NCBI GenBank assembly: GCA_028821455.1
Contig: JAPPGE010000001.1
Span: forward strand, 1-64,000
Reading direction: 5' to 3'
DNA length: 64,000 bases
Origin: a bacterium
GTDB taxonomy: Bacteria > Pseudomonadota > Alphaproteobacteria > SP197
Position 1 is the first letter of the stretch. Each line of letters starts with the position of its first letter. Position numbers and translations under genes: made by a program. Shown here one piece after another: positions 4,561 through 7,776 of this stretch. The notes beneath the pieces were generated by a model. It searched no databases, was not told the DNA's origin, and worked only from the letters and a program-made list of their open reading frames with translations.

Positions 4561-4981
4561 ATGGATGGAGCGAGTCGAATGCGCCGTATTCAGCCACGTG
4601 TAGATTTCGGCTGGGGACTCCGGGGTCTTCAATCGCTGCTTGCGACGAGCGATGTGGTCGTCATCGTGGACGTGTTGTCGTTTTCCACGGCCGTGGATGT
4701 CGCCACGTCCCGGGGCGCCCGGATCCTTCCCTTCCCTTACGGACACACGGACGCCGAAAGCTACGCAAGGAGCCGAGGTGCTGTCCTGGCCCAACCTCGA
4801 TTGGCAGGTGGTGAACAGTTGAACCTTTCTCCCGAAACGTTGAAGGCCGTGGCGAGCGGGACACGGATTGTCCTTCCGTCGCCGAACGGCTCGAGACTCT
4901 CTCGAGAAACGGGTGCGGTGCCGACGCTGGCCGGCTGCCTGCGCAACGCGACCGCTGTGGCACAGGGCGCATCGTCGCTTG
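4561..4981 (+). pseudogene. comB-like 2-phosphosulfolactate phosphatase family, 5' part (split by IS)
   Basis: The N-terminal 140 codons of a ComB-family protein. VVIVDVLSFSTAVDVATSRGA and the downstream VLPSPNGS match the family's core motifs. ComB hydrolyses 2-phosphosulfolactate in archaeal coenzyme M synthesis; the role of bacterial homologues is usually unknown. The frame runs into the IS1595-family element and stops at codon 146 inside its left end. Start may be 4561 or the ATG at 4579. The missing C-terminal part resumes after the element at 7447, in the same register once the element and one target duplicate are removed. Seen: split frame. Inferred: recent loss of function. Confidence 0.85.
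4974..4981. repeat. Left target-site duplication of the IS
   Basis: The 8-bp sequence GTCGCTTG borders the left inverted repeat and recurs at 7440-7447. Eight base pairs is the duplication length known for IS1595-family elements. Confidence 0.85.
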
Positions 4982-5004
4982 GGGGATTATACGCGTAACT
5001 AGCC
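4982..5004 (+). repeat. Left terminal inverted repeat
   Basis: Begins GGGGATTATACGC and ends TAACTAGCC. It pairs with 7417-7439 at 19 of 23 positions; mismatches are at positions 3, 4, 5 and 14 from the outer end. The outermost GG is conserved in both ends. Confidence 0.9.
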
Positions 5005-5012
5005 AAACCCCT

Positions 5013-5189
5013 CTAACCCGTTGTGCCGGTTGACGACTTCCGGCGCACCTTGCGAAGTGAGGGATCGGGTGGCTTGACGTGGGAGAAAAACGCTCTCGCT
5101 GCCTGTTCCGGGGTCCCGTCCAGCTTGATCACTTGCGTTGCCGGACGGCCCCGCGTCTTGTGCTGGCTCTTCGGCTTTGGCTTGGTCAT
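5013..5189 (-). CDS. Small cargo protein with AT-hook-like core (58 aa)
   Basis: Starts at ATG 5189 with a good ribosome binding site (GGGAG, 8 bases upstream) and stops with TAG at 5013, only 8 bp inside the left inverted repeat. The 58-residue product is very basic. It contains KTRGRPATQVIKLDG near residues 11-25; RGRP is the core of the AT-hook DNA-binding motif. A segment like GTPEQAARAFF and a basic tail KPPDPSLRKVRRK follow. It is transcribed divergently from the nuclease gene with 48 bp between starts. Possible roles are regulator of the cargo pair, DNA-binding accessory or antidote; none is shown by sequence. Real gene status is supported by the binding site and protein-like composition. 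Confidence 0.6.
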   Translation of the reverse strand: MTKPKPKSQHKTRGRPATQVIKLDGTPEQAARAFFSHVKPPDPSLRKVRRKSSTGTTG

Positions 5190-5237
5190 GTGTGAATCTC
5201 CCTTGCCCGAAGGATCGGTGCTTTCTACGGTGCGTTA

Positions 5238-5786
5238 ATGGCCCGCACGGTTCAGGACGATACCCGCGAGGCAGCCCTCGCCAGACTGCTTGAAATCAAG
5301 CGCTCGGCCCGTCGCATAGGGCCGGACGCCACGGATGAACGCGCCAACAGGTTCGAGTTGAAGACAACCACTAGGGACGCTCTCACCACGGCCCGCGATG
5401 TCGGACCGGAGTACTTCGCTCGGATGAGATCGCAGTACCTGATCGCGGCACGTGGGCGCCAGACTGACTACGGCTTCGCGTTCGATGACATCTACTTCCT
5501 GCACCCGGAAGACTTGGAGGGCTGGATTCAGCGATATGAGGCACGGCAAAGCCGTGACCTGTCTATCGTCCACCGGGCACACAAGGCGCTGGCTGCCTTG
5601 GGCACATGCGGCCAGGTCCTGGAACGCCTGCTGTCTATCGGACGGCGCGGGATCACGATCAACAACCCGAAGATCCCATGGCGCTACATCATGGAGCATG
5701 GGACTCGGCTCGGCGAGACTCCGTCTCTAGACCTGCGAGAGCTAGTTGCTGCGCGGCCCCTTCCAGCTTCAGACGCTGGTTCCTAG
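5238..5786 (+). CDS. Predicted small PD-(D/E)XK-type nuclease (IS cargo)
   Basis: A 182-residue protein, the only plus-strand gene of the element. Residues 30-42 read D..TDE....FELK, followed by TTTRDALTTARDVG and the strand YLIAARGR. Asp about 10 residues before E-x-K, flanked by hydrophobic strands, is the layout of the PD-(D/E)XK restriction endonuclease core; the candidate residues are Asp30 or Asp33, Glu40 and Lys42. A helical C-terminal half (DDIYFLHPEDLEGWIQRY onward) has no motif I recognise. Its 3' end overlaps the Mom-like gene by 98 bp tail-to-tail. Nuclease activity is inferred from this core only. Its pairing with a DNA-modification gene suggests restriction, homing or an addiction module. 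The ribosome binding site is weak. Confidence 0.6.
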   Translation: MARTVQDDTREAALARLLEIKRSARRIGPDATDERANRFELKTTTRDALTTARDVGPEYFARMRSQYLIAARGRQTDYGFAFDDIYFLHPEDLEGWIQRYEARQSRDLSIVHRAHKALAALGTCGQVLERLLSIGRRGITINNPKIPWRYIMEHGTRLGETPSLDLRELVAARPLPASDAGS

Positions 5787-6417
5787 ACAAGCGAGGGCGG
5801 ACATCCGCCCATACTGTTCTGGCCTTTGCCATTTGCTTTTCCGACAGACTGCGACGGTATCGGTGAATGAACGCGGTCTTTATGTGCCGATAGTCGTCAT
5901 GCAACTGATCTCGTCCGCCGTTTGAACGCTGCGCATTGCCATGGAGCGAACCGCCACTCTTGCCCACTTCCTTGAAGTTGGCGGCGCGGTACACCGTTCC
6001 TTCATGGTGAACGTCATCGGCCCATGACACGCATGCCTCGATCATCGGCAAGTGCGGGTACTTGCCGTGCCAGTCCTGCCTGATCTGGCGAAGGGCCATG
6101 CCGATTGCACATGTCGCCAACGCGAACGTGTGCTCCTGACCGTTGGAGTCCGTCACCCGCTGGCCCTGCGCGTCGGGGTCAATCCACATACGCGCCAGTT
6201 CGATCAGGTTCATGGGGCGGTGTCCCTGGTACGTGACACTCAACCGGGGCAGGGCGAACAGCAGGACGCCAACGCGTTTGCCGTCCAACGTGATCCAGTA
6301 GGGCATCTGGGCCATCGTGCGACCCCGATGCAGATAGTGCCTCTCGACGATGAGGGCCGTTGCCTCTTGCAGATTGGCGACTTCAAGTGACAGACGCTTC
6401 CGCAGTTTGGCCGTCAT
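5689..6417 (-). CDS. Mom-like DNA adenine modification protein (IS cargo)
   Basis: A 242-residue protein resembling the Mom family, GNAT-fold enzymes typified by phage Mu Mom, which converts adenine to a methylcarbamoyl derivative and so protects DNA from many restriction enzymes. Seen: a start-region HYLHRG (27-32), a strand pair GKRVGVLLFA, LIELARMWIDP (71-81), a helix ALATCAIGMALRQI, and the family-typical ACVSWADDVHHEGTVYRAANF block (about 128-147) followed by a Gly/Arg-rich stretch. Its ATG overlaps the transposase stop as ATGA, so translation is probably coupled. The basic C-terminal tail may bind DNA. Alternative: a GNAT acetyltransferase with another substrate. The family call is reasonably firm, the chemistry less so. 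Confidence 0.68.
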   Translation of the reverse strand: MTAKLRKRLSLEVANLQEATALIVERHYLHRGRTMAQMPYWITLDGKRVGVLLFALPRLSVTYQGHRPMNLIELARMWIDPDAQGQRVTDSNGQEHTFALATCAIGMALRQIRQDWHGKYPHLPMIEACVSWADDVHHEGTVYRAANFKEVGKSGGSLHGNAQRSNGGRDQLHDDYRHIKTAFIHRYRRSLSEKQMAKARTVWADVRPRLSRNQRLKLEGAAQQLALAGLETESRRAESHAP

Positions 6418-7355
6418 GCGACCAAGTCCACGTAGCGGAGCCGCTTGCCCACGATGGCGCGGGCGAGGAACGCCATCTGGTCGATGGTGTCCATGTCCCG
6501 GATGTTGTTGCGGCCCGCGAACTCCGCCACGTAGCGGCCAAGGTGCTTCTCTGACAGGTGATGGAACGTGCCGTGGTAGCCGCGCTTGAACAGGCTCCAG
6601 AAACCTTCCATGCCGTTGACCGTGACTTCGCCACGGACATACTCGCCATCGCCATGCTTCACCGTCTCGTGCTGGCGGGCGATCCCGGTATAGGCGCTTG
6701 CCTCATCGGTGTAGACCGTCGCACCTTCCTCGGTGCGATCCGTGACGAACTTCTGCAAGGTGGCGGCGTCCGTCTTCTCGACCACTGCGGCGCTGACTTG
6801 CTTGGTCTGCTGGTCCTTGACGCCAGCGACGATGGCCTTGCCGACGCTCCCGCGCCCGGTGAGGTGCTTGCGCTTGCTGGCGTGCATGTTCTTGCGCTTT
6901 CCGCCAACGGCGGTCTCATCGGCCTCTACAGGGCCGGGGAACGGCTTGTCGATGCCGCCCATGAACCCCTCGCGGATGCGCTGCATGAGGAACCATGCCG
7001 TAGCCTGCCGGATGCCAACCTCGCGATACAGCTTCATGGACGACGTGCCCTTGATGCCCGTCGTCATCATGTAGAAGGCGATGGCCCACTTCTGGTAGCC
7101 GATCTTGCTGGACTGCATCGTGGTCCCCTTCCGCACTGAAAAGTGCGCCCGGCAGTCCTTGCAACGGTATGGCATGGGCTTGCGGCTCGCAACGGGGGCT
7201 GTCCGCGTCGATCCACAGTCCGGGCAGAACCGGCCTTCGGGCCAACGCTGTTCCTCGAACCACTTCTCCGCAGTGGCGTTGTCCGGGAACAGCTTGAGCA
7301 TTTCCATGACAGTCATGCCCTTGCGGTGCGATCTTCCGGGTGCCTTCTGTGCCAT
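6414..7355 (-). CDS. IS1595-family transposase
   Basis: A 313-residue transposase from ATG 7355, which has GGAGAGTAGAG directly upstream; a GTG at 7388 would add 11 residues. Domains: an N-terminal zinc ribbon (C44, C47, C65, C68: CPDCGS and CKDC), a helical DNA-binding part, and an ISXO2-like DDE-type catalytic domain with EADETAVGGK (Asp146), VYTDEASAY (Asp217) and VNGMEGFWSLFKRG (Asn247/Glu250). All expected motifs are intact and the frame is unbroken, so the element could be active. It ends in a 4-base overlap with the Mom-like gene. Confidence 0.93.
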   Translation of the reverse strand: MAQKAPGRSHRKGMTVMEMLKLFPDNATAEKWFEEQRWPEGRFCPDCGSTRTAPVASRKPMPYRCKDCRAHFSVRKGTTMQSSKIGYQKWAIAFYMMTTGIKGTSSMKLYREVGIRQATAWFLMQRIREGFMGGIDKPFPGPVEADETAVGGKRKNMHASKRKHLTGRGSVGKAIVAGVKDQQTKQVSAAVVEKTDAATLQKFVTDRTEEGATVYTDEASAYTGIARQHETVKHGDGEYVRGEVTVNGMEGFWSLFKRGYHGTFHHLSEKHLGRYVAEFAGRNNIRDMDTIDQMAFLARAIVGKRLRYVDLVA

Positions 7356-7416
7356 CTCTACTCTCCGTTTCTGGATAGTATAGTGCACGTTATTCGGGAG
7401 GGTGTCAACACTTTTC

Positions 7417-7439
7417 GGCTAGTTAGGCGTATAAGTACC
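7417..7439 (-). repeat. Right terminal inverted repeat
   Basis: Read from its outer end on the minus strand it begins GGTACTTATACGCC and ends TAACTAGCC, matching the left end at 19 of 23 positions. It lies upstream of the transposase gene and probably overlaps its promoter. Confidence 0.9.
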
Positions 7440-7447
7440 GTCGCTTG
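7440..7447. repeat. Right target-site duplication of the IS
   Basis: GTCGCTTG, identical to 4974-4981. The surrounding match is 10 bp (CGTCGCTTGG at 4973-4982 and 7439-7448); I placed the ends so that both inverted repeats align symmetrically. Confidence 0.85.
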
Positions 7448-7776
7448 GACCGACCATTGGCGTCATCGCTGCAGGCGAGCGCTGGCCCGACAACAGCCTG
7501 CGCCCTGCGATCGAGGACCTCCTCGGGGCAGGATCGATCATCCAGCGCCTGTCGGCACGGCCTTCTCCAGACGCGCAAGCGGCCAAAGCTGCCTGGCGGG
7601 CTCTCCGGAGCCGGATCGGGGGCGTCATCCGGGAATCGCAATCAGGGCGGGAACTGATTGAAGCGGGATATGCGGGAGACGTGACAATCGCGACCGAAAC
7701 GGACGTTAGCGGCACGGTGCCGCGGTTGCAGGGCGACGCCTATGTCGACGCGGCAGGGAAACTGTCCCGGGCATGA
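7447..7776 (+). pseudogene. comB-like gene, 3' part (split by IS)
   Basis: About 109 codons continuing the ComB family after the element: GPTIGVIAAGERWPD, then SLRPAIEDLLGAGSII, both family-typical, ending at TGA 7774. Joined to the 5' part after removal of the element and one duplicate, the frame gives about 249 codons, close to the normal ComB length of 230-250. Without removal it has no own start signal. A GST-family gene follows 270 bp later. Confidence 0.85.

Follow-up and report, generated by a model that had tools for sequence, protein, structure and literature searches.

Transposons of the IS1595 family create an 8-bp target duplication, end in inverted repeats and can carry passenger genes beside the transposase. 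Type II restriction-modification (R-M) systems are exemplified by PvuII of the Proteus vulgaris plasmid pPvu1, whose nuclease is accompanied by a controller protein as well as by a DNA methyltransferase; its target is CAGCTG and its base-contact triplet is H83-H84-H85. R-M systems move with insertion sequences, their genes being flanked by IS copies or co-integrated with them (PMC3031569). The Mom protein of phage Mu is a counter-defence enzyme that is expressed under the control of Com and protects the phage DNA (PMC6483171), and it is reported to be toxic upon artificial expression (PMC12707154). The two activities have been brought together in jumbo phages, in which Mom domains are fused within a single polypeptide to REase-fold domains with a predicted division of labour between modification and restriction; bacterial Mom systems are cited in the same work (PMC7824862).

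The window analysed here, a stretch of 64,000 nucleotides, harbors a complete IS1595-family element at positions 4982-7439. It is bounded by 23-bp inverted repeats, whose sequence had no chance occurrence in 100 shuffles, and is flanked on both sides by the 8-bp duplication GTCGCTTG. Deletion of the element and one duplication copy in silico restored a 249-aa reading frame, the first half of which matches 2-phosphosulfolactate phosphatase (PF04029); judging from this restored frame, the element splits a ComB-like gene. The transposase exceeds the cut-offs of both PF12762 (2.3e-35) and PF12760, covering the zinc ribbon and the DDE domain, and matches NF033547 (2.8e-51, 174.5 bits against a cut-off of 75). 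Its first GTG is at 7388, and an ATG at 7355 is a better fit to the start in relatives. The domains, repeats and duplication are those of the IS1595 family, which bears out the precise repeats, target duplication and IS1595 transposase of the original prediction. Starting from the transposase end, the transposase gene is followed by a Mom-family gene, a nuclease gene on the opposite strand and, next to the distal repeat, a gene that encodes a 58-aa protein. The ATGA overlap between the transposase stop and the Mom start probably couples their translation. Profile searches revealed no methyltransferase domain in any of its four annotated frames.

Features of the window element and cargo of related IS1595 elements
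Feature	Location	Strand	Support
Terminal inverted repeat, cargo-distal end	4982..5004	+	GGGGATTATACGCGTAACTAGCC
Terminal inverted repeat, transposase end	7417..7439	-	GGTACTTATACGCCTAACTAGCC = reverse complement of 7417-7439
Target-site duplication, left copy, 8 bp	4974..4981		GTCGCTTG
Target-site duplication, right copy, 8 bp	7440..7447		GTCGCTTG
Interrupted ComB-like (2-phosphosulfolactate phosphatase) gene, 5' part	4561..4981	+	PF04029, restored frame
Interrupted ComB-like gene, 3' part	7448..7776	+	restored frame
58-aa AT-hook-like small protein	5013..5189	-	56% identical homolog in L077, 1e-7
182-aa PvuII-family type II restriction endonuclease	5238..5786	+	PF09225, PDB match, catalytic-residue alignment
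Nuclease/Mom tail-to-tail overlap, 98 bp	5689..5786		reading frames
242-aa Mom-family DNA modification protein	5689..6417	-	PF25680, phrog_1384
ATGA overlap, transposase stop / Mom start	6414..6417	-	sequence
IS1595-family transposase	6414..7388	-	PF12762, PF12760, NF033547
N6_N4 methyltransferase + HNH	L037		
Methyltransferase-Mrr fusion	L038		
3.8-kb element, 860-aa N6 DNA methylase	L039:4072-7909 (host genome contig C51)		type I / type IIG similarity
Degenerate transposase, then C5 methyltransferase, type II nuclease, Vsr (more distant element)	L041:3920-6324 (host genome contig C23)		PADLOC REase_II (nuclease)
Methyltransferase + XcyI	L077		
D12 methyltransferase + NotI	L078, probably L108		
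C5 methyltransferase + GIY-YIG	L080		
Methyltransferase-HNH fusions	L081, L089, L098, L099, L101		
N6_N4 methyltransferase + BglII-like nuclease, four copies	L082-L085 (genome G312)		
N6 methylase + type I specificity subunit	L088		
Fused type I-like protein	L109		

The 242-aa protein matches the Mom family PF25680 (7.4e-14), with scores of 52.3 bits for the window protein and 51.2 bits against the curated cut-off of 27.1, and the 'Mom-like' family phrog_1384 (4.3e-16), so the Mom-family assignment of the original prediction holds. Its similarity to Mu Mom is low (28%); both possess the motifs ELxRMW and ADxxxGxVYxAxNF, and the RMW segment, D134 and Y143 of the window protein align with R111-W113, D149 and Y159 of Mu Mom. 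In contrast to Mu mom, the window gene follows a transposase gene, has no Com-like gene in view and has a nuclease as its partner. Elsewhere, a 593-aa protein with a Mom domain is encoded two genes downstream of a transposase gene on the Stanieria plasmid pSTA7437.02 (L013:3710-5491); Pfam revealed no nuclease domain in it, and its C-terminal part has no Pfam match. Two further Mom-like matches (L012 and L003) were weak and were not used.

Sequence searches assigned the 182-aa protein to the PvuII family (PF09225, Endonuc-PvuII), with 28.6 bits for the window protein and 29.5 bits against the curated cut-off of 25, and by itself it matches PvuII in the PDB. A profile of its three members aligned to PvuII at 4e-14 for the single-chain subunit and at 4e-30 for a 324-residue chain, which was matched twice, with an hhalign probability of 98%. 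Residues D30, E40 and K42 correspond to D58, E68 and K70 of PvuII, and N142, N143 and K145 to N140, N141 and K143; all six positions are invariant in a four-way alignment that includes PvuII. The predicted PD-(D/E)XK nuclease can thus be specified as PvuII-like, its core being present by sequence homology to PvuII; the predicted models of Mom and the nuclease, built from 2-3 sequences with pLDDT values of about 40 (42 for the nuclease), were too low for a fold search. The two nucleases share the catalytic D/E/K and the NNPKIP segment, but the window protein has insertions ahead of this segment and a C-terminal extension, and the triplet H83-H84-H85 is replaced by A-R-D in all three members. 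Because of this replacement, its target may differ from CAGCTG, and we read the protein as an active nuclease whose recognition of the inner bases has changed. The host genome shows no avoidance of CAGCTG over 421 kb (121 observed against 117.6 expected), which a recent arrival of the element would also explain. No sigma-70 promoter match was found upstream of the nuclease gene. Among phage proteins, the family phrog_28628, of unknown function, matches the window nuclease (5238-5786; 1e-9) and is probably a PvuII-type nuclease family. Two other candidates were set aside, a 37% match in genome G168 whose frame is unrelated and by eye resembles a uracil-DNA-glycosylase, and a viral-contig match (L004) that by context lies inside a phage structural gene.

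The Mom and nuclease genes are paired at two other loci. A pattern scan with Mom of 84,980 species genomes, which is sensitive to close relatives only, identified locus L015 on the 172-kb contig JAJEJC010000009 of a Dehalococcoidia MAG, where Mom is 80% and the nuclease 74% identical to the window proteins, in the same convergent order and with an overlap of likewise 98 bp (4629-4726). This locus has no transposase, and its DNA similarity to the window ends at the module edges. The phylum to which the L015 genome belongs was searched across 360 genomes and yielded L138 in genome G917, with Mom 62% and the nuclease 42% identical; here the genes are convergent and abutting, and Mom lacks the N-terminal 30-40 residues in the same frame. 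No IS1595 element is detectable around either pair. Codon comparison of the window and L015, with dS near saturation, placed the dN/dS of Mom at about 0.07 and that of the nuclease at 0.10-0.13, values that indicate purifying selection on both. At all three loci the nuclease adjoins a predicted DNA modification enzyme. In the plasmid relatives of PvuII (pPvu1, an Acinetobacter plasmid and an Aeromonas plasmid), the gene adjoining the nuclease encodes a site-specific DNA methyltransferase, and by gene position Mom occupies the methyltransferase place at the window, L015 and L138. The cargo genes are present once in the host genome, and no further copy of the pair turned up when phages, plasmids and viral contigs were scanned. 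PF09225 gave no match in 299 genomes of the phylum but also missed the window nuclease itself, so this result does not support an absence. A Mom remnant (L139) and a Mom gene cut by a contig end (L016) were also observed.

Related transposases, taken from the same genus and class, are mostly 49-67% identical to that of the window, and R-M genes recur as cargo in the slot that follows the transposase (see table). In the transposase tree, 18 of the 33 rows of one supported clade bear R-M cargo, counting the window pair, whereas the nine outgroup elements have none (Fisher 0.005, an ad hoc test on rows that are not independent); for L097, L099 and L108 the assignment relies on resemblance to proteins that were scanned in other elements. 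This cargo is scattered within the clade, the label requiring 14 changes on the tree. Over the 20 bases compared, the ends of L039 are identical (20/20). In genome G312, two of the four copies have repeats at their ends and 8-bp duplications that differ between them, and therefore the R-M genes move within the transposon. The sister of the window element is L077 (support 100/100), which is homologous in its ends, transposase and 58-aa protein but not in its cargo. The cargo has therefore been exchanged at the transposase stop codon, and the Mom and PvuII-like pair sits where a classical R-M system would. Another IS1595 element bounded by repeats and a duplication carries the defence gene UzuA (L095:3572-4393), so that defence cargo extends beyond R-M. 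PIN-domain (L045:2057-2512), KilA-N (L034:2423-3262) and Cas2-like (L042:2784-3056) proteins are encoded within or next to IS1595 elements that are more distantly related.

It is likely that the cargo of the window element constitutes a two-gene type II-like R-M system, in which Mom-type adenine acylation provides self-protection. We use the term type II-like rather than file the pair as a classical type II system, as Mom stands in place of an S-adenosylmethionine-dependent methyltransferase. The bounded element, the protein families, their catalytic residues, the recurrence of the pair, the purifying selection and a slot filled by methyltransferase and nuclease in sister elements can all be read from sequence; we infer the enzymatic activities, the chemistry of the mark, a common target site and a defence or addiction phenotype. 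Mom would mark resident DNA at sites including the nuclease target, presumably by transferring an acyl or carbamoylmethyl group, like Mu Mom, to the N6 position of adenine, and the PvuII-like enzyme would cut unmarked DNA that enters the cell. A cell that lost the element would be left with unprotected sites, and the pair would thereby stabilize the transposon, an effect that ordinary R-M systems have on their carriers. With Mom coupled to the transposase and the nuclease on the other strand, protection could come first in a newly entered cell. These sequence comparisons support the original prediction that a simple transposon carries an R-M logic in which the mark is of acyl type. We count against this reading the lack of CAGCTG avoidance, the ARD triplet, the 28% similarity to Mu Mom, the truncated Mom of L138, the small number of known pairs (three) and the reported toxicity of Mu Mom (PMC12707154).

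Since the same biochemistry would serve both, an R-M system is inseparable by sequence from a pair that is mainly an addiction module retaining the transposon, with phage defence marginal; the two differ in the target of selection. A nuclease with a protecting enzyme follows the post-segregational-killing logic known for R-M systems, and the transposon has no other selectable gene. However, the pair is kept without a transposase at L015 and L138, and UzuA in a related element suggests a host benefit, so that we regard a predominant addiction role as unlikely, albeit worth serious attention. Mom might instead be an anti-restriction shield of the element or chance cargo, with the nuclease an unrelated passenger, given that Mu Mom works in counter-defence (PMC6483171) and that IS1595 elements bear miscellaneous cargo such as PIN, KilA-N and UzuA proteins. 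We find this improbable, as both families occur together in convergent orientation at three divergent loci, two of them without the transposon, as purifying selection acts on Mom and nuclease alike, and as a chromosomally integrated non-viral element has little to gain by shielding its own DNA.

Recent capture of genes that are intact by chance and inert in the host would account for the single genomic copy, the absent site avoidance and the missing sigma-70 match before the nuclease, but fits poorly with open frames that retain every catalytic residue and with the low dN/dS obtained in comparison with a distant locus; such dead cargo seems quite improbable. The difference from PvuII at the H83-H85 contacts might also indicate a modification-dependent nuclease that attacks Mom-modified phage DNA, Mom being present for another reason. 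Host DNA would then be cut whenever Mom is active, whereas PvuII cuts unmodified sites and no separate reader domain was recognized in the 182 residues, which makes this arrangement very improbable indeed.

Returning to the R-M system with a Mom-type mark, the original prediction named no known instance of the combination, a statement to be qualified, as the jumbo-phage fusions were predicted to operate in the same way (PMC7824862). Unlike those fusions, the window pair consists of two convergent genes, occurs in bacterial genomes and on a transposon, and has a PvuII-family nuclease; unlike the PvuII system, it has Mom as partner and no controller. Compared to the IS-linked R-M systems (PMC3031569), the pair is contained within one unit transposon, next to the transposase. 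The clade shares its transposase, 8-bp duplication, inverted repeats and passenger genes with known IS1595 elements, but complete and unrelated R-M systems recur in one slot. The literature searched, with the founding IS1595 paper outside it, contained no description of such a clade. What is new is that the pair stands alone in bacteria and on a transposon, that its nuclease is of the PvuII family and that the pair recurs, together with the R-M-swapping IS1595 clade. It appears reasonably probable that a stand-alone type II-like system, with bulky Mom-type adenine acylation as its self mark and a PvuII-family nuclease of altered specificity, resides on an IS1595 clade that is a general vehicle exchanging R-M cassettes at one fixed slot. 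If so, Mom, known for phage counter-defence, would supply the self mark in a bacterial restriction system, and this mark may escape methylation-based surveys. The well-understood family of the partner nuclease would allow the Mom-restriction prediction to be tested directly in E. coli, and the clade would explain the spread and swapping of very different R-M systems as single small transposons.

The 58-aa protein had been grouped with the Mom and nuclease cargo, and of the proposed joint conservation only that of Mom and nuclease stood, at three loci of which two have no detectable IS1595 element. Its homolog occupies the same place beside different cargo in L077, and it therefore belongs to the transposon, as a predicted accessory outside the Mom/nuclease module. 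A role as controller protein was rejected on the same ground and on its absence from L015. Small proteins with a TPE(E/D/Q)xAR motif are encoded on the transposase strand downstream of the cargo in L037, L038, L077, L089, L099, L103 and the window (5013-5189), and possibly represent a transposition accessory family of this IS1595 clade.
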